A DNA stretch of 64,000 nucleotides from Pegea sp. RAD2-039 (lineage: Eukaryota; Chordata; Thaliacea; Salpida; Salpidae): assembly GCA_034620365.1 (NCBI GenBank), contig JAQGEQ010000201.1, positions 62,001 to 126,000 of the forward strand, given 5' to 3'. The position numbers and the translations under genes are program-made. Shown here one piece after another: positions 6,791 to 61,725 of the stretch. Below the pieces are notes generated by a model. The model was not told the origin of the DNA. It did no database searches and saw only the letters and a program-made list of their open reading frames with translations. Position 1 is the stretch's first letter; each line of letters starts with the position of its first letter.

Positions 6791-7400
6791 CTCAGTATGC
6801 TGTATATTATTGTCAGGTCAATGTACTTCAAGACTTTCTTCTTTAAAACCTTTTATTATTATCTTATACGTAAGATACGACGAAGATAACAAAAATGAAA
6901 GCTTTTGGAGTTTATTTCTATCTTAATTTTAACATCTAAATTACAGCCATATTATCATCACTATTAAATAAAAGCCATTTTGTTGATCAACACGTATGCT
7001 TGGTTTAGTTGCTTCCTCAACAAATATCTTTATATTTTCAATAAAGAAGAAACTTCTTTATTTAAGAAGTTCATTTTATTGCTTTTTTGAGGTATATAAT
7101 TATATTAGTAAATTTTTAGTACAGTTTTTTAAATCTAGTTTTATAAAAAGGTGTACATACAAAATTCTTTCTGTTTAAAAAATGTATTAAAATAATTTGT
7201 TTAACATTTCATTATTTTATAGTTTTTAAGTTTGATTAAACTCTAATGATTTGAATGATCTAATAAATAAGTTATTTTTCAATTAACCTAATTTAAAAAA
7301 AGAACTTAATAAACTATAAATTATAGACTAATAACACAATCTTTCAATTAAATTGTTTATTATTTCTTATTTGTTTTTAGTCTAATTTTTTTTATACAAT
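6791..7400. other. AT-rich region upstream of ZIP7, no gene seen
   Basis: No convincing coding sequence. It would contain the ZIP7 promoter, or the outron if the gene is trans-spliced. Confidence 0.45.
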
Positions 7401-7406
7401 TTTTTC

Positions 7407-7408
7407 AG
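7407..7408 (+). promoter_or_regulatory. Splice acceptor just upstream of ZIP7 start
   Basis: A pyrimidine tract ending TTTTTTCAG finishes 7 nt before the ATG at 7416, and no 5' exon is apparent. This is the layout expected for a spliced-leader trans-splice site. A distant cis 5' UTR exon is the alternative. Confidence 0.55.
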
Positions 7409-7415
7409 AAATAAA

Positions 7416-24970: not shown

Positions 24971-26542
24971 TTAAAAAATCCGATTATCATGAAATTCATC
25001 TCCGAAACATTTTCGTCCAAACTCCTGTCCTCTTTCATGAATCCATTTATTTCCGACCCATTTGACCCCAACTAGAACAGGACAAGCTGCATGTCTGGTC
25101 CTTTCATCGCCCCGACCACTTGGGTACAAGTTGTACCAAAAAACTGCAGAACCTTTTACAGGTCTGGCCGCGATCTCTGGTTCTAGAAACACGGTACTTC
25201 CTCCAAATTGAATATCCGTCAAATAGATGAGAAAAGTCGCGATTCGATTACCGATGACGTCATCAAACTGACCAGCGTCGCTTTCACGAGCGTAATCAAA
25301 ATGAGGTTCATATTGACCTCCAATTCCGTAATTAGCGATCTGAAGATCTTCAGCACTATCCATCGAAAGTCCTGTGACGTCAGTGATGCGTTGGCAAACG
25401 CGTCTGATGACGTCATCTTCATCGTCTTTCAACCATGCGCTTTTACTGACGCGGTACTCGGCACTTTCAAGCACACCAGTTTGTGGATTCTGTACAGTGG
25501 CCCGATACAAACGCGGTTTTGCGATTCGTTTGATGACGTCAATCTCTTGATTGCTGATGATATCGTGGAAGCGCACGATATGGGGTGACGGATACATCTC
25601 TTCCAGTTTGACAGGGCTAAGTAGCAAACGTGGTTGGTTGTTGTTTGTCCAATAATAACATTTCAATTGTTTCTCGATTCGCGATGGAAGTGGTGACGTC
25701 ACACGGCATAGACGTTCGTATTGTGTGATTTCTGGACGTCGTGATTGAGCGGTGACGTCATCATCTCCTTTTTTATTTGCTTTTAAATGCTGTCTAAAGT
25801 ATTGATAGTTGTTTTGGATCCGGGTATTTCCCGGTTCAATCTGCAACATTTGGGATGTGTACTTCAGGGCTTGATGGAATCCGCCTAATTTTGAGGTACA
25901 AATGGCGAGGTGATCAAGAACGTCAAATCGCGTAAAGTAGGAAAACTGATCCTCATCCATTGAGAGCACTTGTGACATCCACATCTTACAATGGAAGAAA
26001 TCATAGTTCAAATAAGACTCTCTACCGATGTAGTAGCAATCCTCTGCTGTTAAAGATTGATTTGATCTGATTCCTTTGATGTTTCCATCTGCTAATTTCC
26101 CAACATCTAACTTGTAAGTATCCTGGAGTCTTAGGATTGCTTTTGCAGAACCTTGAAGATCACTTTCAGTTGGGAAGTTGATCTGCTTCGATCTAAAATC
26201 CTCAATAAATTGTTGGTTGTTTTCTGAAGTTAAAAAATCTTCAAGATGCTTCCATTCAAATCCAAGTCTTTTGATTAAACGAAATTGATTGATTGGATGG
26301 CTTAGATAATTGGTGACGTCATCAGAAGAAGATTTTGAGATTGATTCCAGAGTTTTAAGATTTTGTTGAAGTTTATTCAGACGATTATATTCAGATTTGA
26401 GATAATTATCAAGAGATGAAATTAGATCAATTTCACTGTTCAGAAGCTCCTCCATGTGTCCCAATGACGAAAACCATTCTTCTGATTTTGTAAAGATTAA
26501 AAGAAAAGAAATAATGATAAGAAAAGTTGAAGAAAACTTCAT
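24971..26542 (-). CDS. P4HA: Prolyl 4-hydroxylase alpha subunit, intronless, 523 aa
   Basis: Catalytic subunit of collagen prolyl 4-hydroxylase (ER lumen; hydroxylates X-Pro-Gly using Fe(II), 2-oxoglutarate, O2 and ascorbate; partner PDI). Order: signal peptide (1-20); P4Ha N-terminal dimerisation region (about 22-150); peptide-substrate TPR region (about 160-255, with DCYYIGRESYLNYDFFHCKMW); catalytic 2OG-Fe(II) dioxygenase domain (about 330-515). Iron ligands are H414 and D416 (PHFDYAR) and H484 (TRHAACPVLVG). The 2-oxoglutarate lysine is K494 in VGNKWIHERGQEF. Length and spacing match vertebrate P4HA1. No intron, unlike most animal homologues. It may be an old retrocopy, but is intact. TGACGTCA occurs at least six times in the reading frame, encoding Asp-Asp-Val-type text. 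Confidence 0.96.
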   Translation of the reverse strand: MKFSSTFLIIISFLLIFTKSEEWFSSLGHMEELLNSEIDLISSLDNYLKSEYNRLNKLQQNLKTLESISKSSSDDVTNYLSHPINQFRLIKRLGFEWKHLEDFLTSENNQQFIEDFRSKQINFPTESDLQGSAKAILRLQDTYKLDVGKLADGNIKGIRSNQSLTAEDCYYIGRESYLNYDFFHCKMWMSQVLSMDEDQFSYFTRFDVLDHLAICTSKLGGFHQALKYTSQMLQIEPGNTRIQNNYQYFRQHLKANKKGDDDVTAQSRRPEITQYERLCRVTSPLPSRIEKQLKCYYWTNNNQPRLLLSPVKLEEMYPSPHIVRFHDIISNQEIDVIKRIAKPRLYRATVQNPQTGVLESAEYRVSKSAWLKDDEDDVIRRVCQRITDVTGLSMDSAEDLQIANYGIGGQYEPHFDYARESDAGQFDDVIGNRIATFLIYLTDIQFGGSTVFLEPEIAARPVKGSAVFWYNLYPSGRGDERTRHAACPVLVGVKWVGNKWIHERGQEFGRKCFGDEFHDNRIF

Positions 26543-26562
26543 TTTTACATTCCCACAAAAAA

Positions 26563-26564
26563 CT
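26563..26564 (-). promoter_or_regulatory. Splice acceptor upstream of P4HA start
   Basis: The minus strand reads TTTCTTTTTTTAG, ending 20 nt before the ATG of an otherwise intronless gene. Candidate trans-splice acceptor. Confidence 0.5.
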
Positions 26565-27774
26565 AAAAAAAGAAATTAAAATATTTTAGAAAATGATAAG
26601 TATTAATAAACCAATTACTTTTTTGTAATTAAATTAGAAAATAATAATAATTGATTATTTAATTAACAATCAACAACTAGTAAAAACACAATATCGATTA
26701 TTATCTATAATTATTATGTTTCATTAATTAGATTGCTATTACTATTAATAAAATAATTAAAATAATGGCTACTTAACAAGCTCAAAATAAAATTTTACAT
26801 TTTAAGGTTTAAATAAAAGTAAGCTTTCAACTGACAATCTCTTATTACTAATTACTACTAAAATACAGTTAAGTAGTAAATGCACACTTATTAGTTAAAA
26901 AATTGAAATAAATTAAAATGAATAAATATAATCTTTAAAAGCTTTAAGTAAACCCCAAATAGAATTAAATTATTTTTAGACGGATACTAAAATAATTGTT
27001 TAAAGATTTATAATTTATCTTACATAAGATACAATTTAATTATAGAGAAATTAAACCCGCAAAAATTGAACTTGAATAAGATTTTAAATTTTTCAAAATA
27101 AAAAAACAAAACAATTTACTTAAAATTTTTAAGTTTAAATATTTCAAAGTTTGAAAAATTAATTTTTAAAATATTATGATAGAAATTGACAAAATAAATA
27201 AATAAAAATATCTTTAAGAATAAAAATCTATTAAAAAAACATATTATCAAAAATAAAAATTTTATATCAAAATTATTCATTTTATAAATAAAATAAGTAA
27301 AGAAAAAGACTTCAAATTCTATTTAGGTGATCATCAAAAGCTAAGATTAAAATTGTAAAAAAATAATCAAAAGAAAAGTTTAAAAACAACTTTTAGAGAC
27401 TGGTTAGCTTTAAAACTTTCTAACAAAATAAAAATCTAGTTCTCTGCAAACTAAATTCATCGAAGCAAAACTAAAAATGTCTTATAAGGAACTTAAAAAT
27501 TCACCCAAGCAAATAAAACATACTTAAAAGCAGACACAGACATTTTGGTCTTTGACGCATCTGACTTAAAAAGTAAGCAACTATTTATTTATTTTACCCT
27601 AAGCTATTTTTTTATAACTTTGCTTTGTTTAATTTTTTTAACTTTATGTTGACATAATTTTTTTTCGAAATTATTATTAGTAACAAAGAAAATTGTTTTA
27701 AATCTACATAAATAAAAACTTGCAAAATTGTAAATTGGTGAAATATAATGAACAAGCCATTTCATTTCAACTAA
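26565..27774. other. AT-rich spacer, no gene seen
   Basis: Strongly AT-rich with many A/T runs. Nothing recognisable. Confidence 0.5.
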
Positions 27775-31823: not shown

Positions 31824-33080
31824 GTTTGATTGAACTTAAAAAATATATTTTTTTATTTTGCTTTTCAGTTTAGATAAAGGCATTTTTAATGAAAAGATTA
31901 ATCTTTAACGTTTTGAAATTTACAAAAAAAAGTGAAATTATTTAAAAATAAAGTAAATAAATTTGTTGTTTACATCAAGAAGGGGTTAGGGTTTGTAATT
32001 GATAACGTCATCTTTTGATGTTTAAAACAAACAATAACAAGTTGAAAAAAAGATGACAGAAAATAAAATAAAAATGAGGAACTTATAAATCTTTGAATAA
32101 AATAATTGAAATTTGTGTGGCAAAAACTTAATGACCAAGTTTGAGTTTGATGACGTCTTCATTATTCAGCAGAAGTCAGTGAAGCAGAACAAGTTGCAAA
32201 ATTGTTTGAAATAGTTGAAAAAGGTTGGAAATTATTAAGTTTAAAATCAGACCTTAGAAAAAGTGATTTTATTAAAAACCTTTTCAATTTAATTATTGTG
32301 GTTAAATTTCATTTAAGGCCTTTCAAAATATTGAGGTAAAATTGGAAGTAAAAAGATGGAAAAATAATTTTGTTTTGAAGCAGAAATGTTTCAACATCAG
32401 ATGACGTCACGAAGGTAAAAGGTTTTCTCCTTTGTATATTTTTGTTTCAAACAAAGATAACATTAAAAATCCACAAAGTTGACAAATTTATTTTTATAAC
32501 TAAAATGTAATTGATAAATTTAATGAAAATTAGTTTTTACTTTAAATCTAATTTATCTTTAAGTCAAATTATGGCAAGTTGGCGAAAAAGTCTGAAGCTT
32601 ATTTTTACTTCAAATTTATAAAATTTGTACAAAAATTTGAAAAATTTGAAGCTAAATTGTTTTGAAAATTTATTAGGTACTTTATAATTCCTAAATATTT
32701 TTTTTGTTCAAAAATAATTTACATCATAGGCAAGAAGTTCAGACAAGTAAAAAAAAAATAAATCATAAGTTAATTTACGAACAATTTAAAATAATGTACA
32801 ATATTAGTATTATTTGGAAATCTAAAAATATCAGATTTCGTCTGCTGTATTTTAGAAACAATTAAAGTTATTGTTGAATTTTATTAAAGCCAATTTCAAA
32901 AAAGCAACTAATTGTCGGTGACGCGGCACAAAACTTTGCTAAGTCAAACATCACTTACCAAAAAAGTTGTTTTTGTAAAAATATTTGTAGCTCTTAAGCA
33001 CTGCTAGCGGATAAAATATTTCTTCAATATATACAAAAACTGCTACAAATAAGGAATTTTCGTGAATTAGTCCGAGAATT
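31824..33080. other. No gene established
   Basis: AT-rich. After an acceptor-like TTCATTATTCAG (about 32,165) a short open stretch reads AEVSEAEQVAKLFEIVEKG on the plus strand and ends at a GT. It may be a lone exon or chance. Confidence 0.4.
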
Positions 33081-33082
33081 AG

Positions 33083-34860
33083 TCGAGAGTTAAGATCTCT
33101 GATCATCCATCCACGAACGACTGATTCGATTTAAACTTAAAAGTCGAGAGTTAAGATCTCTGATTATCGTTCCAAGGGTCCCAGAATCATTTTGAACTTT
33201 ATAGTTGAAAGTTAAGATCTCTGATTATCCATATACAATTCTCATATTCGTTTTAAACTTTGTAGTCGATAGTTAAGATGTCTGATTATCGTTCCAAGGG
33301 TCCCAGATTCGTTTTAAACTTTGTAGTCGATAGTTAAAATCTGTGGTTATTGTTCCAAGCGTTCCAGTTTTAATTAAAATTTGTAGTCGAGAGTTAAGAT
33401 CTCTAATCATAGCTCTAAGGTACCCAGATTCGTTTTAAGCTTTGTAGTCAAGAGTTAAGATCTCTGATCATTGTTCCAAGGGTCCCAGATTCGATTAAAA
33501 GTTTGTATTCGAGAGTTAAGATTTCTGCTTATCGTTTCAAGGTCCCCAGATTTGATTTAAACTTTGTATTCAAGAGTTAAGTTCTCTGATCATTGTTTCA
33601 AGGGTCCCAGATTCGATTTGAAGTTTATAGTCTAGAGTTAAGATCTGTCATGATTGTTCCAAGGGTCCCCAGATTCATTTTGAACTTTGTAGTCGAAAGT
33701 TAAGATCTCTGATCATTGTTGTAACGTCCCCAGATTTGATTTAAACTTTGTAGTTGAGAGTTAAGATCTCTGATCACTGTTCCAAGGGTCCCAGATTTGA
33801 TTTGAACTTTGTATTCGAGAGTTAAGATCTCTGATCACTGTTCCAAGGGTCCCAGATTCATTTTGAACTATGTAGTCGAGAATTAAAATCCCTGGTTATT
33901 GTTCCAAGCGTCCCAGATTCGATTAAAATTTGTAGTCGAGAATTAAGATCTCAAATCATAGCTCTAAGGTACCCAGATTCGTTTTAAGCTTTGTAGTCGA
34001 CAGTTAAAATCTTGGGTTATTGTTTCAAGGGTCCCAGATTCGTTCTAAACTTTGTAGTCGACAGTTAAAATCTTGGATTATTGTTCCAAGGGTCCCAGAT
34101 TCGATTTGAACTTTGTAGTCGAGAGTTAAGATCTCTGATTATTGTTCCAAGGGTCCCAGATTCGTTTTGAACTTTGTAGTCGAGAGTTAAGATCTCTGAT
34201 CATTGTTTCAAGGGTCCCAGATTCGTTTTAAACTTTGTAGTCGATAGTTATAATCTCTGGTTATTGTTCCAAGGGTCCCAGAGTCGATTTAAACTTTGTA
34301 GTCGACAGTTAAAATCTTGGGTTATTGTTTCAAGGGTCCCAGATTCGTTCTAAACTTTGTAGTCGATAGTTAAGTTGTCTGATTATCGTTCCAAGGGTCC
34401 CAGATTCATTTTGAACTTTGTAGTCGAGAGTAAGATCTTTGATCATTGTTGCAACGTCCCCAGATTTGATATAAACTTTGTAGTTGAGGGTTAAGATCTC
34501 TGATCACTGTTCCAAGGGTCCTAGATTCGATTAGAACTTTGTAGTCGAGAGTTAAGATCTCTGATTTTTGTTGCGAGGTCCTCATATTTGATTTAAACTT
34601 TATATTTAAGAGTTAAGATCTGTCATGATTGCTGCAAAGTCCCCAGATTCATTTTGAACTTTGTAGTCGAAAGTTAAGATCTCTGATCATTGTTGCAACG
34701 TCCCCAGATTTGATATATACTTTGTATTCGAGAGTTAAGATCTCTGGTTATCGTTCTAAGGGCCTCAGATTCGTTTTGAATTGCTTAGTCGAGAGTTGAG
34801 ATCTCTGATTGTTTTTGCAAAGGTCCAAGCGTTGTTTTTGGCTCGGTTGTCGAGTGTTAA
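33083..34860. repeat. 61-bp tandem satellite, about 30 copies
   Basis: Units contain GTCGAGAGTTAAGATCTCTG, then ATTATTGTTCCAAGGGTCCC, AGATTCGTTTTGAACTTTGT. I count 30 starts of the GTTAAGAT block at roughly 61-nt spacing, with substitutions and a few indels. Variants differ mainly in the ATCATTGTT/ATTATCGTT and CGTCCCCAG/GGGTCCCAG segments. No open frame runs through it. Confidence 0.95.
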
Positions 34861-41468: not shown

Positions 41469-42407
41469 AAAGTACAACTTTCAACTTTTAATATAAATTT
41501 CTTAAATTGATTTTATTTTTCACCTCAAATTTTTTTTCTAAATTTAAAAATTGTTTCTTTTAGTTTAGGAACAAAAGTAACTTTTTTTCTCAATAAAATA
41601 TTCTAATGTTCTTTAAAAAATTTTCACCTAAAATTGAAATTTTCTGAAATGTTGAAGAAGTATGAGAAACAATTTCATCAAAAATATCTTTTAGTTTTAA
41701 CGATTTAAAATGTTTTTGAAACAAGCTTTAATTAAACACAAAATGTTCACATCATAAGCCTTGTTTTACAAAACCACAAAACTAAACAGACTTCTAACAA
41801 AATTAAACTTTTTGTACTTCTGGGGAAACTACAACATTTTTGTTTAAAGTTTTCACCAAGACTTCGTCTTTATGTGGAAAATTTTCTCTTAGCTCAAATT
41901 TTTTTTGTAATTTCAGACTTTGAAAAAAATTTGCTGAAAAATAAATTCAGAAATAAAAAATATCTGTTTGTAGATTTAATATTTGAAATTTTAAAAAAAT
42001 TTTTTTAAGTAAAATGTCTAATAATAATTTTTAAATAAAATTTTTGAGGGAAATTTTTAATTTTTGAACTTTTAAAACAAATCTCATAATAAGTGAAATT
42101 GTCATATTTCCTTTTTTCAATAATAAAATTTCGACAAAAAAACAAATCTGCAAAATAAAACAAGAAGAATACGAAAAGGATTTTAAACAATATAAAAAAA
42201 GATTTTCTACATTTTATCATAAGCAGTAGAAGATTGAATCTTGAAATCCAACTCGTTTCTGCAGCTTAACGGTATTTTGTTGTCATTTAAAGAAATAGAA
42301 ATTAGTTTCTGGTTTCGATATCTCCGTAATCTGTGGCAATAAAAAATTATTTGAAAAAAATCAAAGAAATCATCTCTTGAAAGTTGGTTATTAAAAGCGA
42401 GCAAGTA

Positions 42408-42510
42408 AGTCCTCAACACCTTCAATTATTAAGTGTAAGATTTTTTTGCCTTGCTGTTGTTAGTCGAACATTTTTTATGATTTAAGGTGCTAACTAGATG
42501 CAGCTAGACT
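42408..42510 (+). repeat. Dispersed short repeat (AAGGTGCT family), copy 2
   Basis: Shares with 50,700-50,830 the order AAGTAAGTCCTC..., CACCTTCAA, TAAGATTT, GTTGNTNGTCGA and AAGGTGCT. Lies just past the 3' end of the receptor gene. No coding capacity. Confidence 0.55.
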
Positions 42511-42592
42511 TTTATTATTTGAAATTAGAAGCTGACCACCTTACAAATCAAACAAACATAAAATAAAAACAAAATAATTTCACAATTTCTGC

Positions 42593-45500
42593 TCACATGA
42601 AAAATGATGCAGTAAAAAGAAGCAAGACTGCAAGACTAATTCCAAGATACAAAACAATTTTCAGATGATTCTTTTGCTTTGAAGACTTTTTGGAAGATTC
42701 TGGAAATAAAAAATAAAATTTTTCAAGTTGCAAGATTTGGGATTTCTACCTGAGTTATTTTTTGAAGTTACCAAATGAAAAGTAGATTTATTAAAGCTTG
42801 TTTCAGTTGCATTTTGATGGTTGTAAATTTCAGTTGTTGTTTCTTCAATTGTTTCTCCTTCAAAAGTTTCAAATTATCAGATATCAACAATATTGAAGGA
42901 TTTAATTAATTTAAAGACTATCTCAAATTGATCATAATAATTATTTCAATTATTTGGATTTTGCAAATATTTATGTAAATATCATCAAAAGATTAGTAGC
43001 AGTAGATGATGTCAGAGTGTTTGTGTATGCAGATGATATCAAGCTATTATCTTGTAATCCTTTAAAACTTCAAACTGCTCTGCACACTGTAGAAAACTGG
43101 TCTACGAATCGGCAGCTCAGAATTCAGCCCACAAAGTCTGAACTTATAACTTTTTCTCGTAGACCAGCTGTAAATTGCTTGAACCAATACTCCATTAATA
43201 GATTTATTATTCAACGAATATCTTTGGTTCTGGACCTTGGCATTACTCTATCATCTGACTTTAAATGGCGCAATTATGTTTCCAAAATCTTTGGAAAATC
43301 AATCAACCTTGTCTTCCTTATTATAAAGACCTTTAATTCTAAGAAACCATGCTTTTTTATCAATCTTTTCAAATTGTACGTACGTCCAATTCTTGAATAC
43401 AATAACAGTGCATGGATGCCATTTCAAGTTATTGATACCAAAGAAATCGATTCTGTTCAGGCCACATTTACAAGATTGGTATGTAGGAAACTTATTATTA
43501 AATATTATAGTTATAAACATCGTCTCAGCTTCTTCAATTTAGATACTTTGGAAATCCGACGGATTAAATACGACTTAATTCTTATTTTTAAAATTATCCA
43601 CAATTTAATTGACATTCAGTTTGATGATTTCTTTTCCATTAGTCCTTCCTTCAAGTTATATCAGCTCAGACGACACACATTACACCTTAATAAGCCTATA
43701 TCACCTAGTGAATTGGTCAGAGCAAATTTATTCTCATACCGTACAATTAATACATGGAATCAGCTGCTATCAGACATTTCTATGTCGAAGTCACTCGCAT
43801 TGTTCAAGCAGAAGTTGAACCGTTTCAATATTGCCAACATTGTCATTTCTAAACTGTGATTTTTTTTCTTTCTTATATTATTAACATTCCATGTAATTGT
43901 TCACTGTTATATGCTTTGAGTGATATCGAAATACCATGTATTACATCTTTTACTTTCTATATTTTTGACTAAATAGATGTTAATTTTGAGAATGTGTGTT
44001 AGCGAGAGGTGCTCTTTTCAGGTACCCTCCTTTGCATTTATTGAAATAAATAAATAGATAAATAAAATAAAATTTCAAAGCAAAAAGACTTTCTAATTAT
44101 AAATCACTTCAACTTGTTTTTAGATTAACTAAATTTAACTCAATTAACTAATTTAACAAATTATAAATTTTTTTACTGAAACTTGGTTTATAAAAATCTA
44201 ATAATAAATATTATTTGTAAATTATTATTCTTTTCAGGTTTTTGATATTTTTTTAATTTCTAGAAACATATTTTCTCAAAAGAGTTTTGAAATCTTAAAA
44301 GTTCAAAATTTTTAACCTGTTGTTTCTTGGCCTTCAATTCTTTCATTTTCGGAGAATTCCGGGAAATGAGAGCATTGATAAATGAAAAAATCTGATAAGC
44401 TCCAAACTTCTAAAGACTTCAAACAAACATTTCTGATTTTCTTTCCAAGCATGCCTGAAGTCAGCACTGAAATGTTTCCTCCATTCACACAAGTAATTGA
44501 ATATGCTAATTCGCCATCAACACACGTCACTTCAGTGGCTTCTAGATGTTCTGGGAGAGTTGGGCGTTCCCCACAACTGACATCTACTTGAATTGTAAAT
44601 GAGCAAAATGATTTGGCATTATCTTCATCTTCTGCTGAATAATTCATCATGTGCTTTCCCGAATTCAAATTAATTGGTGGATCTTCAACAGATGATTCTA
44701 ATCTGAGGTTTTCTGTTGCTGAAAAATTTGAAGAAAAAGTTGCAAATTTCATTATTGCGATAAAAAATAAAATTTTATTCCTTAATTGATTTCTTTATCA
44801 TGTAAACATATAGTTATTTATATAAAGAAGCTTTATTATAAATAGTATACAATAATATTTAATATTAGAAATTTGAAAATCTTTGAAATAGTTGTTATGG
44901 CTTTTATTCATTTAGTTCTATTAATAATAATCGTTTTCCAACCCGTGAAGTCGTCAACCCAAACCGGCAACTGCCAGTTCACTAAAAGTGTTTCTTGACA
45001 TTGAGCTAATTTGTAGTTTTGGTCAGGTGGACAAGTTTTGGCTTGTGGAGGTAAATCTGAAAAAAAAGAAACTGAAATTAAAGAAATCGCTTTGAAAGTC
45101 TTCTGAAAGTTTTCTGTGGGCTTTTTATCTCTCGAATTTTTATCTCTCCTTTAGATGAAATTTTCATCTGTCTCTTTGAGATTGATTAATTTAATGTTTC
45201 TAAGGTGATAATTATATAATTTATTCAATTTTCGTAAAAAAAGATTAATCTTCGATTTTTGAAAAAGAGTTTTGCTGAAAAATACCTAACAACATTTTTT
45301 TAAATAATTTTCGTTCAAAAAAATGATTTAATAAATATTTTAGCAACACTGTTTCAAATTTCAACAACTTTCAAACTAATTGATTTTTTACTACGTTGAA
45401 ATGTTCTTTTCAAATTGAGGAACTTTTTCAACTCACTAAATTTTCTGCTTGTTGAAACAATACAAGATCCATTTTCAGCAAATTCGAACCCATCATCACA

Positions 45501-48500
45501 AAAACATCTCTTCTCTTCAGCCCTAAAAGGAACACAAATCTGTTCACAAGGATCAAGATCACAAGGATTTTTGATCTCATCTGAAATATTTGAAATAAGA
45601 TTTGTATTTAAAAAAATTTAATTTTCATTTACTGAAATTGGATTTGAAAATTGTTGAACTGAAAAGCCGCAAGGATTGAAGTTTGAAAAAATCAGTTGGG
45701 CCAACTTTGACAGAAACCAAATTATTCTCCGAGTTATTTAAACTCAAACTTTCAACTCGGTTACTGGAAGAGTCGATGTAATACAAAATATCATCGTGAA
45801 CTCCGATGCTGTGAAACATAAGTCTACAAATTTGGTGTTTTTTGAAATTGAAACCGACTCAAGTATATGAAAGGGAAGATCATGATATTTGGAGATATCT
45901 TTGTATTTTTTAGGAATGTAAACATCTTCAGATTTTATTTTTTTCAAATCATTTAGAGGAAGCTCATAAACGAGAAAACCCTCAGAAAGGAATAAAGAAT
46001 CTCCTGAATAAAAGAAGGAACAATTTTAAATCTTATTTATTTAATTATTCCACGTGTAGCTGTGAGTGGCAAACTCTAAGGCTCTTATAACGAAAAAAAA
46101 ACAAAAACAATATGAGCAAAAAAATAATAAAAATGTCTTAGGGATCATTTAGAACATTGCAGAGGTAAAAGTAAAATAGAAAATGTGAATCAAAAATATA
46201 ATTTCATAAAAGAAGTGAAGAAACTTGAAGTTTTATCATTTCTTAAACAAAATTTTAAAGATTTTGATGTAGAAAAGACTCTTTTATTATTTTTTTTTAC
46301 TTTTGTAATCTATATCGAGAGCTGTTGGCCAGTTTAAGTTTCTAATCACTTCAGTTTTGTTGGAACCATCAAAATTTGATCTCCACAAACTTCCTACTTC
46401 ATCTAAACTTCTTGTGGTCCAATAAAGAAATCTGTAGATATAAAAATGTTAATCAAAATGAAAAGTGTTCAGAAAAAATAGAAAGTTTACAAAATCTTAG
46501 AACCTGTAGCTTTACTGTTAAAAAAGTTTTTACAAATTTATTTGAATCAAGAAAAATTGGTTTTTGTTGAAAATTACAAAATATTTAAATTTTTTAAAAT
46601 TGAAACTTTTCAAGAAATTTTTAAACCTGTTTCTGATATCCAAAATCAATTTCGTGATGATAGATTGGTTGATTTCATCAAACTTTTTTCTGACTATTGT
46701 TTTTTTCAATCTCTTTTTTGTGTCCAAAACAACAATATTTTGTGAAAATTCATCAACAAAATACAAATTATTTGAAATTGGATCAACTTCAAAAACTTTA
46801 ACTAAAAATAAAATTTGTTAAATAACAAACAATGAAGTTGTTAACAAACCTGTTATATTCGACAAAATAATTTTTTGTGAAGTTAAATTGGAATTTGACA
46901 TTTGAATGTTTTGATTTGTAGCCCAAAATAGATCTCCATTTCGAGGATTAATCTCAACATTTTGAATTTTATTTTGGGGATCTGTTGATGGAGTTGTTAG
47001 ATTTTTGATAATAAGTTTCAAACTTACCCTTTGAAACTGGAATTATTGAAGAGAATTTTGTTGAATCAAACTTTAGTTGAAATAATCTGCCCTGACCAGA
47101 ATCACATACCACTAAATAATTGTCAGATATCAAAGCTAGAAAAATAAATTTTGATGAAAAAAAAATAAAACATTACAATTTAACTTTGAAGTTTATTTAT
47201 TTTATCGGAATATATCAATTATTTACTCTTATTTAGAATATTTAATTTACAATTGAATGATTTTTGAAATGTCAAACTTTTTTCAAACCATCAAAATATT
47301 CAAAGTTTGATTGAAAAACTTTTTAATATTTCAAAATTTAAAAGGTTTTTCCAATTTTTGAAATTCGAATTCTTTAGGACGATAAAAATTGGGGCAAAAT
47401 CTTTTTGCAATTTATACTCTTTGATTTTTGTCCTCAATTTTCACAAATCACTGACCTGGCTCACATTTACTTTCATCTTCTTTTGATTTATGAAATCCCA
47501 ATGAGCAAACGCATTCGCGTGTCGCGTTGTGTCGTGGTAAACAAATATGGTCACAAGGTGGAGACTGACGACATGAACCTTCAAAGAAGTCTGAAAAATT
47601 TTTCGTTTCAAATATATTACAAAATTTCTCTCAAGAAATGATAATAAAAAATATTGTTTTTACTAAAGCCAAAACTTTCATTTGAAAAAGAAAATCTTTT
47701 TTGCGATAAAAAATTAAATTGAAGAAATATTTCTAAAAATTTAGAGACAAAGACCCTTCTTCAATCAAATTATTTTCTGTTTCATTTCCTCTTAATAATA
47801 ACAAAACTCCTAATTTAAATAATTGAAAAAGTTTTCAAGTTGTTAGAGTATAAAAAATGAAAATTTATTTGAATAGAAATAATCTTTTCACCACGAGATT
47901 TGCCCCAGAAGAGATTAAATCACTGTCTCAAGACATCTTCTCATAAACAAGTTTGGAAAACTGATAAATCAAAAAATATTCAAACTTCTTTCAAAGTAAT
48001 AGAAGCAAACGAATATTCTATATCTTTCACCTTCAAGTATTAAATTTGTTGAGAAAAAACTTAAGATTTTTGGCAGAGAAGTTGTTAACAATTAAGGTGC
48101 CAACTCAAATGGATTTTTATTTTTTATTTTCAAAATTTTGTTAAAAATTTGAAACTGATTTTTGTCATCTTGAGAGTAAACAAAGATTTCTTATAAATAA
48201 ACCTTTTAACTCATCTTTATCCGGTTTGCGGAAGATGGTGATTCCTCGGGGTTTCCCCACAATCTCATGTTGAATCGAATTCTCGTCAAAAGTTTTCTTC
48301 CGAAAAACCCATAAATGGAAAATTCTTTTCAATTCTGAGTTAATCTTCGGATGTAGATCCGTCACAAATAAAAAATCCTAAAAATATTAATTTATTCGTT
48401 TGAAAAAAGTCTGATTAAAAAAGCTCTCAAATCCCAAATACAAGTTTCATTAAAAAGTTATTTTCTCCCAAATTAAAGTTTTCTTGATTTCATCATAATG

Positions 48501-51411
48501 TCATCACTCACCAAGTAACTAGCAATTCCCCAGAATTGTGACGCAGGTTTCGAAAAGTGTTTTGTGACGTCATTTCCACTTAAATCCGAACTCATCACTA
48601 TTGCTCTTGAACCATCGTAGTCATTCCAATATAATCTGTCATGGCATCACAGATGGTGACGTCACAAGTAGTGATAATGACGTTACCTTTCATCATGGTA
48701 GTCAATAGTGATTCCAGTGACGTCATAGACATTTGGGAAGACGATGAGATGTTGAAGATCTTGCCCTGAGAGATCAAGAGAGGAAATTGAAGTCCCTAAC
48801 ATCTTGTAAGTTGAAAAATAGATTCGTCTGCGCGATAAAAGAATGTAAAATGGTCGCTAGGGAGCGTTAGAGGGTGAGAATACAACAAGAAAATGAAATT
48901 AGAAACAAAGTTTTTAAAAGCGTATTTTTTTGTTCTTACAAAATTGAACAAAAATATTTTCAACTTTAAGAACCTCAAAATGTGGTTCGACAGAGGTCGA
49001 AGTTTAAATGGGGAAATTAGATAGAACAGAGAAAGCTTTCAACATCAATTTTTAAAAAAAGATTTAAGTTCTTTTCAGCAACTAAGTCTTCAACAAATGA
49101 TGACGTCATTAATATGTGACGTTATCAACTCTTAATCCTTAAACAGTTTTAAACAAAGACGAGACATGACGTCATCGACAAGTTAAATTGGAAGTGATAA
49201 GAAGTTTGATGATAAAGCAAGGAAGTTTATAAAACAGATAATGACGTCACCTGTTTTTAGGATGAATAGCAATTCCATACAAAGGATGCAGAGATCTGTA
49301 TATGATTGCATATTTGTCATGGAAATCATTAGCTACCATAATACACATCATTTTAGAATCACTCCAATAAAGATTTTTGTTAATGGGATCAAAAGCTAAC
49401 CCTTCAATACCGCGAGCCATTCCTCCAAGGTGATTGGTTGTTTGATGAGTTGTCATATCAAAGACACCGATCTCTTCTGATCTGAAAGTGATCGTGACGT
49501 CATTAGTGATGCAGACGATTTAGATTACATCAACAAATTATAAAATAGAATATTTTTTTTAACTCTTATAATGAAGACAGTTCGTAAAATAATAATAACA
49601 AATATTTAATAATTTTCTTCAATGGTTCCAATAAAACTCTTTTTTTTTAGTTTTTAGCAACAAATCTTTACTTAAAGTCCGAAAAATAAATCTTCTTTTC
49701 TTCATAATCAGATGTTAATGACCAATACTCTGAATTAGGACTTTGAGTTTGTTGAATTGTTTCAAATTTGTCTATCATCTCAGAATCCAGTTTTTGATGA
49801 AGTAATTCTTGCTCAGCAAGCATGGAAGTAAGTCTTGAAATCCCATTGTCAGCAATATAATTTGTCAAAATTACTTTTGTGTCATCAGCTAAAAAATGTT
49901 TGATAAAAACTTGTTTCAACAAATTTCAATTAATATTTTTGTTTTAAACTTTTTAAAGATTAAATTTAGAAAAGGTTTTTGATTTTAGTATTTTTTAGGG
50001 TAAAACTTTTCTTCAAAATGATTTTAAACTAAAACTGTTGTTACAAAAAACTGATTACTAAAAATATTCTTTTAAAGATTTCCTTCAATTTTAATTTTAT
50101 AATTCTGTTTTTTACAACATAAGATAATATTTATTATTTTGATAAATACTATTTGAATAAAATTTAGATAAATTTTAGAAAGATATCATTGTTTTTAAAA
50201 TATTTATATTATAAAAAACTTAAAAGCATTTTTGAACAAAATTGTGCAACTTACGGCATTTGCTGATGTCACAATAGTCCCATCTCTTACTGGTGTCTGT
50301 AGTGTAACACCACGTGCCTTTTATGTCGTGATCAGGGTTTCTGACAAAGGAAAAAATTGACAAATGGAACATTTTATAAAAGTTTTGAAGTGATTTAAAT
50401 ATAAAGTTGAAAGTTTTGTTATTTGTTATATAATTTTTACTGACGACGTCATATTACATTGATTTAGGGAAATCACCTGCAGTAGTTATGGTGTGTATCA
50501 TTTTGAGGTTTTAACCGAACGAAATGAGGGGTATCTATGTCCCACCTTTGACAAGGAATATTTGATGATGTTATTGATCTTTTTCCAGTATAATCCCAAC
50601 TCAATCCTTTGATACATTCATCAGGTATGAATTCTAAAAGAAGATTTCAATAAGTTGTTTGAAAAATGATTTTTTGTGTTTAATGTTTTAAGCATCAACA
50701 CAGCTGATAGAAGTAAGTGAGTCTTCAGCACCTTCAACCACCAAGCATAAGATTTGTTTGTAAGACAAGTTATTATTAACTTGATGTTGCTGGTCGAGGA
50801 GTTTTTACAAGTCAGGGTGCTGGATCTCGTTATGAGAAAGATTAAAAAATGTTTTTAAAAAGAATATCTAAGATAGTTGCTGCTTAATACGTTATGAAAG
50901 ATACAAGTGATCACGATATCAAGGTGCTTGATTAGAAGCTAGTATCAAATGTTATTTAAGAGTTTTGTATTTACATTTAAATAATAATAATGATTTGCTT
51001 TGGCCGAGTATGTTTTACATCGTTAAGTATTGATCAGTTTAATTTTTTACAATCTAAAATTATAATAATTTAAATAGTTAAAAAAAACTTTCAATTGAAT
51101 CAAGATTTAACAAAATATTTAAAACTAAAACGTTTTTCGAAAATTCAATTTTTTAAGTTTATTTTTTTTGCAGCCTCAGGCCAAATGCTGCAAATCTCAA
51201 AACTACAAATATTAAAAATTGAAAAACTATTTTGATTTTAAAAAAATGTTATCTAATTAATAATAATTATTTCGTTACTTAATAACTGATTATTAAATAA
51301 TTAATTACCTTCATCACCAGAACTTTCGATAATTATAGAAGATTTCGAATATTTCAAAGATAACTTAAAAATTATCAAAACTAAAATTGAATGATATTTT
51401 GAACATCTCAT
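42593..51411 (-). CDS. Kringle-(YWTD propeller-EGF)x2-HYR single-pass receptor, 20 exons, 1036 aa
   Basis: LRP-like cell-surface protein of unusual build. Exons (minus): 51411-51309, 50633-50477, 50340-50255, 49888-49672, 49481-49251, 48827-48687, 48635-48512, 48377-48203, 47590-47456, 47135-47028, 46981-46850, 46801-46627, 46431-46301, 46003-45859, 45808-45633, 45580-45437, 45056-44943, 44718-44317, 42857-42750, 42699-42593; 3111 nt in frame. Order: signal peptide; kringle (about 41-116, six Cys, HNYCRNPD, GTWCYTT, WDYCDI); propeller 1 (about 117-412; [18 protein letters not shown]); EGF; propeller 2 (about 457-746; [17 protein letters not shown]); EGF ([13 protein letters not shown]); HYR ([22 protein letters not shown]); a Cys-containing region; Thr-rich stalk; TM; stop after FFM, so no cytoplasmic tail. 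The exon 14/15 border is the least sure. Confidence 0.88.
42985..44070 (+). mobile_element. Family A LINE, 5'-truncated, with open RT C-terminal frame
   Basis: Inserted in the 1.46-kb intron between exons 18 and 19 of the receptor gene, in the opposite orientation. An open frame of about 290 codons (to 43,859) has the RT box [12 protein letters not shown], the [20 protein letters not shown] thumb-side motif, [28 protein letters not shown] and a C-terminal [14 protein letters not shown]. It is followed by a 3' UTR and the end TTTGCATTTATTGAAATAAA plus AT-rich ATAAATA repeats. The fingers and endonuclease are missing. CR1/Jockey-like by motif style. Confidence 0.9.
50700..50830 (+). repeat. Dispersed short repeat (AAGGTGCT family), copy 3
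   Basis: In the first intron of the receptor gene. Shares blocks with 42,408-42,510 and, inverted, with 29,995-30,050. A shorter piece AAGGTGCTTGATTAG is near 50,930. Confidence 0.55.
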
Positions 51412-52955
51412 TTTTACAAAAAAAATTTTCAAAATCTAAAAATTTGTTCTCAAATTTAATTTTATTTTTTTCATAGTTTTTTTTGTTCTTATTGAACTTT
51501 AGTGAATTAAACTTAAATAACAAAATATTTTTAACCCGAAAATTTTCACTTTTAATTAATCTAATTTTACTCAAAAAATAGTTTCTAAATATCTAAACTT
51601 TTTTGAAGGCAATTAAATAACAAAGAAAAAAACAACTAAAACTAGCTTTAGAATGAAAATAAATTAGAGAAAATTTAATTTATTACCAAAATAAAATCAA
51701 GCTAATTAGCTGATAACAAGAAATCCAAAAACTTTTAAACTTTTCTTCACATTCTACTTAAGACGATTGATGTTGACAAATCTTCAAACCGCCTAAAGGT
51801 ATGAAGAAAAAGAAAAAATATTTGAGATAAAAACTCCACAACAAATGAAGCCTAAAGGTAAAACTTAGTCTTCAATAAATATTTATATTTGAAGTTTCAA
51901 TTGTTTACATCAACTTTGTTTAGAAATCAAATTTCAATCAGAAATAATGAAAATTATTTTCTTGAATTTATTTTGACGTCCAAAGATGTAACTGATGTTT
52001 TGATAAAATCTAAGTAAAAAAAATTTCATTCAATCATAATCTGGATATTTTATTCCAATTTTTGTCAATTGCTTTTATTAGAATAATTTTGATTTCGGTT
52101 TTAATCATTGAAATTGAAATCACCAAGTTTTAATTTCACCCAAAAATATCTTCTGATTTATTTTGTAAATTTTAATAAAAATATCTTTAAATTAACTGTT
52201 AAAATTTTAAAGAAATTAGTGAAAAAAATTAAAATCTTTTAATTCAATTAATTCTTATCTTAAATAATATAATTTGTTGCTGTTCAACATTTTCATAAAT
52301 TCTTTTAGAAAAAGTAAAAAGAATTTTGATTCTTCAAAATTTTTCCAAATGAAATTAATTCAAAGTTGTTTAAGGTGGAAATTTTGGTTCAATAATTCTT
52401 TTTTGAGTTACGAAAAGTTTAAATTGATTTTTTAAATATAAGTAAAGTTAAAAACTTCTTTACCTTCAAAAGCACTTGAAAATGATAAACAGATTTTTAT
52501 CTCACGACTCTATTTTAAATCTTCTTAACTTATTTATATTATCACAAAAAAATTAAATAAAAATTTCAAATAATTTCTTTTTCACCTTGACTTAAAAATT
52601 TTAAAAAGTTTTTTTTTAAAAACAAACCAAATATAGAAGCACAAAGAGATCTTATTGTTGGTGACCTAAGGTGCTAAGGGGTTAATTGAGTTTACCACTT
52701 AGCATATTAGTGGTGTTCAAACTATCTCTTTGCAAACAATTTGAAATATTTTGGAAAATGTTTTCCAAACTGTATTCTTTGCTCGATAAAAAGTAAAGAT
52801 GACAATCAGAATCATTTCCGGATCAGTCTCTAGCGGATGCCAAACTTTTGAAGCAAATCAAAAACTTTATTAAATTAGAAATTTATTATTTAGAGAATTC
52901 ATTCGATACTTTTCTTCCACAGAAATTTGGATTTTTAACAAAAACAGATAAAACA
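51412..52955. other. AT-rich spacer, no gene seen
   Basis: Between the receptor start and the end of the cathepsin C gene. Minus-strand AATAAA words at 52,866-52,871 and 52,882-52,887 could serve cathepsin C. Confidence 0.45.
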
Positions 52956-52959
52956 CCAC

Positions 52960-53033
52960 AGTGACGTCATCAACAAGTGACGTCATCAACATGTGACGTT
53001 ATCAGCAAGTGACATCATCAGCAAGTGACGTCA

Positions 53034-53036
<3 letters not shown>
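52960..53036. repeat. 18-bp repeat of TGACGTCA sites at cathepsin C 3' end
   Basis: Five units of the form AAGTGACGTCATCAAC or close variants. Three carry the perfect palindrome TGACGTCA and two carry one change. Confidence 0.8.
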
Positions 53037-55784
<2,748 letters not shown>

Positions 55785-55794
55785 TTAAATACTT

Positions 55795-55796
55795 CT
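55795..55796 (-). promoter_or_regulatory. Splice acceptor just upstream of cathepsin C start
   Basis: The minus strand reads GGTTTTTGGTTTCAG, ending 10 nt before the ATG and inside the 115-nt gap after the CRAL-TRIO gene. Candidate trans-splice site. Confidence 0.55.
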
Positions 55797-55899
55797 GAAA
55801 CCAAAAACCTCATTTTTAATAACCCCGCATAATAATACTTATATTTATGTGCAAATGAAAACTTGACTAGAGTAAAGAAAAGTAACAATTTCAAGAAAT

Positions 55900-56721
55900 T
55901 TATATATTTATAATCAAATTTCTCCATTCTTCAAACTTCAAATCCACCTCACCAACTTGTCCACCATATTTTAGCGGCAAAACTTCCTTTGGTATGATTG
56001 TAAGCAATTTCTCATAATTTGAACCAATCAACACAATTCTTTGTCGAATTTTCTCCTTTAAGAAGGGACTGATTATAGCGTAGACAATATTAAAAAAAAA
56101 CGATTCATTCATGATACAAATATTCTTCAATCGAATTGGCATTGCATCTTGTAAAAGTCTAGTTAATTTGCGACCAGTTGTTGGGCCTAGTTGACTTACT
56201 AAATACATGTTTGTATAATAAAGATCTTCTAATAAAGTGATGCCGTTTACCTGATTCCGTTCATCTTCTAAGAGTTTCTCAATAATCAGAAACACAGAGG
56301 CAAAAATATCTACAGAGCTTGGTTTGTTTGTCCCATAAGTAGGTCGCAACATAATTACTTTAGATTTATTATTAGCTGTCCCTTCTAAAACTGTGACAAA
56401 TTTCGTTTCAAGGAATGAACTTAACAGATTGGGTTTATCAAATTTAAGGAAAAGTTCTGGAAATATTTTGCTTCTTTGAAGATAGTTGTGGAGTATATGA
56501 ATAGATGCAGGTATCTGGAACTTCCTTGCCCTTAAAAAACGGATCAAGAAATAATCTGAGCTTTTAGGTCCTTCTAGCTTAAATTCCGGGTATTTTTGAT
56601 TATATTGATAACGTAAGTCATCAATAAGTTGAAGCCGTTCTTCATTATCTAAAGGTTCATTCAACTCAGTATGTGCTTTTGCTAAAGTATTTTCATCTAG
56701 ATTACAAATATATCTTTCCAT
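55900..56721 (-). CDS. CRAL-TRIO (alpha-tocopherol transfer protein-like) lipid-transfer protein, intronless, 273 aa
   Basis: Cytosolic SEC14/CRAL-TRIO protein that carries a hydrophobic ligand; the nearest named relatives are TTPA and clavesin/RLBP1. Seen: helical CRAL-TRIO-N part (about 20-85) with SSDYFLIRFLRARKFQIPAS; lipid-binding SEC14 domain (about 95-265) with VIMLRPTYGTN, ITLLEDLYYTNMYL, LQDAMPIRLKNICIMNESFF, and ending VLPLKYGGQVGE, the conserved LP.EYGG motif in the form PLKYGG. Length matches TTPA (278). Ligand cannot be told. Single exon. An acceptor AG lies 10 nt upstream of the ATG. It is followed after only 115 nt by cathepsin C on the same strand. Confidence 0.92.
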   Translation of the reverse strand: MERYICNLDENTLAKAHTELNEPLDNEERLQLIDDLRYQYNQKYPEFKLEGPKSSDYFLIRFLRARKFQIPASIHILHNYLQRSKIFPELFLKFDKPNLLSSFLETKFVTVLEGTANNKSKVIMLRPTYGTNKPSSVDIFASVFLIIEKLLEDERNQVNGITLLEDLYYTNMYLVSQLGPTTGRKLTRLLQDAMPIRLKNICIMNESFFFNIVYAIISPFLKEKIRQRIVLIGSNYEKLLTIIPKEVLPLKYGGQVGEVDLKFEEWRNLIINI

Positions 56722-56731
56722 TTTATGATAG

Positions 56732-56733
56732 CT
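56732..56733 (-). promoter_or_regulatory. Splice acceptor just upstream of the CRAL-TRIO start
   Basis: The minus strand reads TTCATTTTTTTAG, ending 10 nt before the ATG of an intronless gene. Confidence 0.55.
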
Positions 56734-58430
56734 AAAAAAATGAATATTTTCAATCTAATCTAGATAAATTTTGAAGTTTAAGACATTTAATTTTTATTGA
56801 AATAAAGCAGACATAAAAAGTAGAAAAATGTATTACTAAAAATCTAATCAAAACAATTTCTTTAAAAATCAGAACTAATGAAAAGATAGAAAAATATCAG
56901 AATAAACAAATTTAACACTAGGGTTAGATAAAAAAATATAAACATTTTAATCTATTTTTTTACATATTTTTACGCAGGTAATGACTGAAACTTTTATACA
57001 AATTTTGTAAAAATTTATAATAAAAAGTTTAATAAATAAAGAAATAAAATAATTACAAAAAATAATTTACCAAAAAAAATATAGTCCAAATTCTGAATAA
57101 AAAAAATCAAACCAACAGAAAATCCACAAAAAAAATATTTTCTGACTAATCAGCACAACAAACAGATTTTTTAATTCAGTTTTATAGTTATAAAGAAAAA
57201 TAATTTCTTATAGAACAAAACTTTCTTTGAAAATTGAATAGAATTTAAAAATTGAAACCATACTTTGAAGTAAAATTTTTTAAAACAAAAAATCTAATCA
57301 ACAAAAATATGAAATAAATAAAAAATTATTTTAATTGAAAATCTTTTAATTTAAAAAAATCTTTTGTTAAATATAATTATAAATACATATATAAGCTTTT
57401 ACATAACTATTGATTAATGAATAATAATATTTTATAACAAAAGTAGAAATAAATTTTTAAAGAACTTTTTATTTTACTTTTTTAATTGTTTTGTTAAAAA
57501 TAAAACTTATTTAAATTAATTTATCAGAAAGTTACAAAAAAAATAATATTATGAAAGCCAACATTTGAGTACTTGTAGGCTTTTAAATAAATTTTGTAAA
57601 ATAGTTGAAAAATGAATTATTTAACAAACATTTTTAAATCGGTAAAAAATAATTATTTCGTTTGTCCCCCAAAAGTTTGTCTGCTTAATTGCATTAAATG
57701 ATGAGTCAAAAATAGTCATTTGGTAAACAATAAATTTGTACAAAATTGGCTAAGTTTATTTTGGCGCTAATTTTGTAAAATCCTATTCTTCAACTGCAAA
57801 GTTCAAAAAAGTTTGAACATTTTCCAAATTAGTTTTCTTCAACCAAAATATTTAACAATTTCATTTCGCCTGCCGTATGGTAGCGCTCTTTGATTTTTAT
57901 ACATTAGAGGGTTTGTGGCTGATAGAATTTTGCAAAAATTGTTGACACTTATCAATAATCTGTATGGAAATTTCTTCTATACTTGTATTGCTCAAAAGTG
58001 TATTAAGTAAATTTATAAAAAACTTCAGGTTGAAGTAAATACGAATATGAAAAAGCTTATGATGTTTTTATTTTGAGTTTAATTAGATTTTTGATAAATT
58101 ATTTAAATTATATCGATTTGAACTAAAAATGCCCTGAAATTGAGTAAAGGTCAAACTCAAAGTAATTGCTTTTCAATTTTTCTTTTATAAAAATATATGT
58201 AAACAATTTTTTTTTGAAAATCAATAGCCTTCACAAAATACAACTCTAGCGATTTCAATTATTCAGATTATTTTTAGCTTTCTGTTAGAACTCAAAACTC
58301 ATAGAATCAAAATATTCTAAATTATTTAATTTAAGGAAAAATCGTATTTATTTCCCACTTAACTGTTCATCATGTAGTATCATGTTTGTCTTTACTTATT
58401 ACTAAACTTTTTTTTTTTCTAAAATAGATT
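56734..58430. other. AT-rich spacer, no gene seen
   Basis: Long A/T-rich stretch with no coding evidence. Confidence 0.5.
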
Positions 58431-61494: not shown

Positions 61495-61725
61495 GCTGAT
61501 GACGTCACCACCAATACTTGAAGTTGATGACGTCACACTCAAAGTAGCGCTGTTGATGTAAAAATATGTTTTTAGCAAATCAACTGATGACGTCACGTTA
61601 CTACTGATGACGTCACTTTACTACTGATGACGTCACATTACTACTGATGACGTCACGTTACTACTAATGATATCACGCTACTACTGATGACGTCACGTTA
61701 CTACTGATAACGTCACAGCAGCATT
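61495..61725. repeat. Array of CRE-like palindromes with 21-bp period
   Basis: Upstream of the membrane-protein gene start. From 61,583 about seven units of TACTACTGATGACGTCACGT at 21-bp spacing; five carry perfect TGACGTCA and two carry changed sites. Two more perfect sites are at about 61,499 and 61,526. TGACGTCA is the consensus of CREB/ATF bZIP factors. Confidence 0.85.

Follow-up and report, generated by a model that had tools for sequence, protein, structure and literature searches.

A tunicate gene for an LRP-like receptor with a kringle and a predicted cytoplasmic tail

Results

The receptor gene and its neighbours

The window, by which we mean the whole stretch of 64,000 nucleotides of Pegea sp. 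DNA that was analysed, carries on its minus strand a gene for a predicted membrane receptor, which we assembled by hand from GT-AG junctions and the reading frame. The twenty exons in one frame that a first-pass annotation of this DNA had described were rebuilt at 51411..42597 with GT-AG introns and consistent phases, and the length it had claimed, 3111 nt (1036 aa, its stop included), was matched exactly once exon 15 was ended at 45633 (GTAAATG). An end at 45660 (donor GTTCAA) was dropped for this one, which restores the 3111 nt and agrees with a paralogue on contig C121. With one further exon, exon 21, the model extends to 3231 nt (1076 aa) and has GT-AG at 20/20 introns. The whole-protein searches of Pfam, the PDB (phmmer) and the genome used an earlier model of 1067 aa. 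The order of the domains (kringle, two propeller-EGF units, HYR-like domain, Cys-bearing region, stalk and transmembrane segment, TM) is almost certainly as claimed. The features are the following.

51309..51411, minus strand: exon 1, candidate signal peptide, weak h-region
50477..50633, minus strand: exon 2, kringle part 1 (Pfam Kringle)
50255..50340, minus strand: exon 3, kringle part 2, with the DxD...W.Y...RW lysine-pocket residues (Pfam Kringle, PDB alignment)
48203..49888, minus strand: exons 4-8, YWTD propeller 1 (phmmer to LRP6 and LRP2 propellers); exon bounds 49888..49672, 49481..49251, 48827..48687, 48635..48512, 48377..48203
47456..47590, minus strand: exon 9, EGF-like 1 (Cys pattern; 21/39 identical to the paralogue)
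45633..47135, minus strand: exons 10-15, YWTD propeller 2 (Ldl_recept_b, 35.3 bits; LRP6 alignment to query 781); exon bounds 47135..47028, 46981..46850, 46801..46627, 46431..46301, 46003..45859, 45808..45633
45437..45580, minus strand: exon 16, EGF-like 2 (FXa_inhibition below cut-off; 19/41 identical to the paralogue)
44943..45056, minus strand: exon 17, HYR-like domain part 1 (HYR below cut-off; paralogue segment above)
44317..44718, minus strand: exon 18, remainder of the HYR-like domain, then Cys-bearing region (gene model)
42750..42857, minus strand: exon 19, Thr-rich stalk (gene model)
42597..42699, minus strand: exon 20, transmembrane segment, ending AT/GTGAGC (mean hydropathy 2.39 over 19 residues)
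42331..42596, minus strand: intron 20, of phase 2 and 266 nt, in whose opening bases the apparent stop TGA is read; the paralogue intron is alike
42207..42330, minus strand: exon 21, predicted cytoplasmic tail LRRYRNQ...TAYDKM and stop (acceptor score, basic tail)

The signal peptide assigned to exon 1 by the first-pass annotation is plausible, with the reservation that its h-region is weak. A scan for starts from 50700 to 56000 gave exon 1 as the sole candidate adjoining the gene if one sets aside a start at 53317, which is unlikely, and the first exon of an upstream protease.

Upstream of the receptor and on the same strand lie a papain-family exon (53336-53689, minus; Peptidase_C1, 35.0 bits) and a possible first exon of that gene (55784-55631, minus), which we take to resemble cathepsin C. 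The window also holds a prolyl 4-hydroxylase alpha subunit in a single open frame (24974-26575, minus; P4Ha_N, 130 bits), a CRAL-TRIO protein, likewise in a single open frame (55903-56754, minus; 84.9 bits), and a ZIP zinc transporter frame (7386-8300, plus) with a long His-rich repeat that comes from an 18-base tandem array at 7537-7783. A LINE-type reverse-transcriptase fragment (42915..43856, plus; RVT_1, 33.0 bits, cut-off 29.6) sits in intron 18 of the receptor gene on the opposite strand, and a satellite-like array of about 28.7 copies of a 61-base unit with 79% matches occupies 33080-34826. The short sequence GATGACGTCA is present in 40 copies in the window against 0.02 expected (for example at 25253, 49099, 52962-52987 and 61586-61695), some of which belong to tandem arrays (16 and 20 bases), and the donors of receptor exons 5 and 6 lead directly into it (GTGACGTCA, GTAACGTCA). 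An Rfam search of the window gave no match.

The assembly measures 105.7 Mb. The spliced leader ATTCTATTTGAATAAG, which the text available from PMC7986045 gives for Ciona intestinalis, occurs in the genome in 272 copies (149 and 123 by strand), the reversed pattern in 0, and an array of it with a spacing of about 199 bases is found on contig C4. The 272 copies of a Ciona-type spliced leader indicate a tunicate genome. A search for COX1, as a guide to the mitochondrial code, gave no match. Elsewhere in the assembly we noted a cluster of three let-7-like hairpins spanning about 600 bases, none of which reaches the gathering score (L034, G000:C42, about 53785-54357), and a 1709-aa open frame with five kringle matches (L012, G000:C264, 370000-379900).

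The ectodomain

The domain calls of the annotation were borne out by Pfam in part. In the 1067-aa model, the kringle was recognised, as was a single repeat of Ldl_recept_b (35.3 bits against a cut-off of 21, the sole repeat to pass), and HYR (18.6 bits, cut-off 21.7) and the EGF-type model FXa_inhibition (17.2 bits, cut-off 33.4) fell below their thresholds. The aligned segment of the C121 paralogue reaches 40.9 bits with HYR, above the cut-off; in a six-frame HYR search of the whole genome the window's own HYR was absent from the matches at E <= 0.001. In the PDB, phmmer aligned an LRP6 chain to query positions 181-781 in a single stretch. Its propeller matches were to LRP6, LRP2 and LRP4, and plasminogen and LRP2 head the matches (the best 60 of 117). 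By Ldl_recept_b and phmmer, YWTD propellers are thus followed by EGF domains, as in an LRP-type ectodomain.

The Cys-bearing region in exon 18 looks sushi-like by eye, from its cysteines. Pfam Sushi gave no match at E <= 1 to the Cys-bearing segments of the window gene, the paralogue and an LRP-HYR gene on contig C78, and the segment of the window gene, searched alone, matched nothing in Pfam.

A second gene with the same domain order

A tblastn search of the protein over 20 stretches found a paralogue on C121 in which kringle, propeller, EGF, propeller, EGF and HYR follow in the same order. Our hand-built model of it has 22 exons and 1109 aa, and its kringle scores 63.7 bits in Pfam. The two proteins are identical at 339/1038 aligned residues (33%); by part, the figures are 47/75 for the kringle, 104/296 for propeller 1, 21/39 for EGF1, 75/283 for propeller 2, 19/41 for EGF2 and 21/85 for HYR, so that the kringle and EGF1 are the best conserved. 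Six exons are of equal length in both genes (86, 217, 141, 124, 108 and 114). All of the window introns (20/20) are matched in phase in the C121 gene, which has one extra, a figure weaker than an independent count because the phases in both genes were picked by hand to hold the frame, each with the other gene in view. In the C121 model, the first start chosen for exon 9 lacked AG and was replaced by one 12 bases upstream that follows AG. Intron 19 of that model is GC-AG and the last three exons depend on it; without this splice the frame halts at a TAG past the Cys-bearing region.

Searching the whole genome with the protein gave at least 32 matches. The gene itself, on C76, accounts for 19 and C121 for 6, and the 7 listed off these two contigs cover kringle positions only. 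The receptor family therefore has two members seen, a count that is a lower bound. Because C121 repeats the whole domain order, the architecture of the window gene is more than chance. The order is unusual, as the annotation had claimed, and a second gene has it too.

The paralogue also bears on whether two genes, a kringle gene beside an LRP-like gene, have been fused in error. A model built from genomic DNA leaves room for such an error, but the kringle exons of C121 stand in the same place and in the same phases. Moreover, among the 13 other kringle stretches (L011-L023, which span the kringle matches listed for the rest of the genome at 9.9 kb each, so that farther propellers would escape), 1/13 also has a propeller match at E <= 0.001, and this one, L022, is the C121 gene. 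We regard an erroneous fusion as hardly credible.

The end of the gene and the predicted tail

The receptor had been described as lacking a cytoplasmic tail. The stop on which that description was based, TGA at 42595-42593, overlaps the phase-2 donor AT/GTGAGC (slash, splice site) that closes exon 20, and downstream exon 21 follows ...TTATTGCCACAG and reads LRRYRNQKLISISLNDNKIPLSCRNELDFKIQSSTAYDKM and a stop, adding a basic tail. A phase-2 GTRAG donor always reads xxG-TRA, so that a real intron would put an in-frame stop at this very place; the stop-codon reading is very probably an artefact of the donor. The predicted tail has about 40 residues, is basic just inside the membrane and ends in YDKM.

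Splice-site scores were compared across the window. The exon 21 acceptor falls in the top 4.7% of 3124 AG by score. On both strands 288 acceptors of the window score as well or better, of which 33 open a phase-2 frame of at least 40 aa and 3/288, exon 21 among them, yield a 40-80-aa tail whose first six residues include three basic ones, the acceptor threshold of 6.7 having been chosen with the exon 21 site in view. The exon 20 donor scores 2.6, under all 38 matrix donors (lowest 4.2), and 30% of the window's 2960 GT reach this score. The paralogue has a phase-2 intron after its TM as well, TTTTA/GTAAGT, in which the donor again spells an in-frame stop (TAG). Its last exon gives the tail YRRGSSS...SYSVFN; the acceptor of that exon scores 3.5 only.

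If the mRNA instead ended after the TM, the product would be a tail-less form, perhaps GPI-anchored, acting as a decoy or ligand trap. The weakness of the exon 20 donor would fit this, as would an AATAAA at 42516, within intron 20 and 77 bases beyond the annotated stop (one of 156 on that strand in the window), with none between 42206 and 41900, past exon 21. The unspliced reading also closes in a hydrophobic stretch, and GPI signals end in such a stretch; a C-terminal hydrophobic end without a tail holds for this reading only. However, the phase-2 GTRAG donor would read as a stop in any case, an acceptor and a basic tail lie downstream, and the paralogue has an intron in the same place and the same phase. 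We consider the tail-less form unlikely, and from the sequence exon 21 very likely belongs to the gene. The statement that the receptor cannot signal on its own had the absent tail as its premise, and that premise was very probably a donor misread as a stop. The receptor may still serve as a co-receptor, decoy or ligand trap, as the annotation had suggested.

The tail of about 40 residues, translated in full, contains no PPPSP and no NPxY. LRP6-type signalling through a tail without PPPSP is unlikely. A YxxPhi-type motif closes the tails of both genes, YDKM at the very end in the window gene and YSVF one residue before the end (YSVFN) in the paralogue; beyond this motif the two tails have little in common. 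The motif was spotted after the fact and not preset, and a C-terminal YxxPhi arises by chance in about 4% of cases per tail (38/1016 pseudo-tails; 2.8% and 2.6% in shuffles). YxxPhi is an AP-2 signal in the text available from PMC3522622, and the tail sequence has the form of such cargo, so that YDKM is a putative endocytic motif.

The kringle and its lysine pocket

The Pfam kringle covers aa 41-115 of the 1067-aa model (66.3 bits, cut-off 34.3), and the best single-kringle chains in the PDB are plasminogen kringles (among the best 60 of 91). For kringle 1 of plasminogen, the docking table of PMC8036777 gives the residues that contact lysine analogues as D55, D57, W62, Y64, R71 and Y72. In our alignment the same six positions (55/57/62/64/71/72) read D, D, W, Y, R, W in the window gene; the paralogue has D, D, W, Y, K, W. 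The window kringle thus carries the residues of the lysine-binding type and is predicted to bind lysine. D-x-D is uncommon in this genome, being found in 0/11 contiguous kringle second halves outside the window gene; it is present in stretch L013 and absent from L021, and L017 and L019 yielded no second-half string.

The kringle is bounded by phase-1 introns on both sides, with a phase-2 intron within. Its phase-1 flanks make it a class 1-1 module in the exon-shuffling sense, such modules being the unit of exon shuffling in the available part of PMC8001218.

A receptor for adhesion to matrix or for immune recognition could also use such a kringle, by binding lysine-bearing matrix or microbial proteins, with the tail only setting its turnover. 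The retained lysine-pocket residues and the HYR-like domain are consistent with this, the HYR fold being common among adhesion proteins, but the endocytic motif suits clearance equally well. We hold an adhesive or immune role to be possible, if doubtful.

Discussion

Three observations stand at the centre of the explanation that we favour: the domain order, the sister gene, and the conserved intron after the TM that leads to a tail exon. Taken together with the predicted tail and lysine pocket, they suggest that the window gene may encode an LRP-like type I receptor for endocytic clearance or sorting, with a lysine-binding-type kringle as its cap and a short tail, one of two paralogues. We give this reading a probability of roughly 0.4. 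The kringle and propeller 1 would together hold a lysine-presenting ligand, and the C-terminal YxxPhi would carry receptor and cargo into clathrin-coated pits. Such a receptor would serve endocytic clearance or sorting and would not be a tail-less decoy.

A variant of the two-gene family, in which the ligand is held between a Kremen- or plasminogen-like kringle and an LRP6-like propeller pair in one chain, where Kremen and LRP6 need two, and splicing or retention of the post-TM intron switches between tailed and tail-less forms, seems to us decidedly improbable.

If the clearance or sorting receptor is the right reading, then in the sister group of the vertebrates exon shuffling joined a lysine-binding kringle, as a class 1-1 module, to an endocytic receptor of LRP-like build, and the result was kept twice. 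It would then be possible to test whether a kringle can give an LRP-type ectodomain the means of capturing ligand that Kremen provides as a second chain. For the reading of genes in general, since a phase-2 GTRAG donor always looks like an in-frame stop, a search for a spliced tail exon is advisable wherever the frame of a receptor closes immediately behind the TM.

Comparison with known receptors

No description of the same domain order was found in the open-access literature searched, which is not proof of absence. An LRP-like receptor carrying a kringle is a combination new to the literature searched; it is unusual, and it is kept in two genes.

With LRP5/6 (Arrow) the window receptor has consecutive YWTD propeller-EGF units in common, and it is to LRP6 that query 181-781 aligns. 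However, LRP5/6 have four such units and the window receptor two; LRP5/6 carry LDLa repeats before the TM and PPPSPxS motifs in the tail, and the window receptor has no LDLa match (Pfam, E <= 1) and no such motif in its tail, whereas it adds a kringle and an HYR-like domain. With two units, no LDLa and no PPPSP, it is not LRP5/6. Pieces of an LRP5/6-like gene (propellers, LDLa, and PPPSP by pattern) lie apart on contig C37. The core LDL receptor family is marked by LDLa modules and an NPxY tail; the window receptor gave no LDLa match in Pfam, and its predicted tail contains no NPxY.

Kremen1/2, in the available text of PMC5014086, is a membrane protein of type I whose N-terminus bears a kringle and whose tail is short, as is predicted for the window receptor. 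Kremen has WSC and CUB domains; the window receptor matches neither (Pfam, E <= 1) and has propellers in their stead, and for want of a WSC or CUB match it is not Kremen. The two WSC matches in the genome are on C107 and C78, and neither contig is among those of the 25 listed kringle matches.

These likenesses bear on the Wnt/Dkk-type biology that the first-pass annotation had proposed, in which the kringle-propeller ectodomain would be a co-receptor or antagonist and one chain would do the work of Kremen and LRP6. The same text (PMC5014086) has the Kremen kringle and WSC domain holding Dkk1 against an LRP6 propeller, an arrangement that a kringle beside a propeller pair alignable to LRP6 could recall. 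But WSC and CUB are absent by Pfam from the window protein, only one feature is in common with each family, and a separate LRP5/6-like gene is present. A genome search with Dickkopf_N found nothing and no control matched either, so that this empty search stands without a positive control. The proposal thus found no support, Kremen-like kringle and LRP6-like propellers notwithstanding, and we think a Wnt/Dkk role improbable.

Plasminogen kringles have their lysine-pocket residues in common with the window kringle; plasminogen, however, has a protease domain, and the window receptor has none, being a membrane receptor with a single kringle.

Also akin to the window receptor is the LRP-HYR gene on C78 (L029, G000:C78, 559000-568900), read as open frames, which like it has YWTD repeats, EGF, HYR (46.9 bits, above the cut-off), a Cys-bearing segment, a TM and a tail, as well as a Thr-rich stretch. 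It differs in having no kringle match, more propeller pieces and an extra Cys-rich segment before the TM, presumably GCC2/GCC3-like. The C78 gene may resemble the scaffold that predated the entry of the kringle, and the kringle would have joined an LRP-HYR gene of this kind as a class 1-1 exon module.
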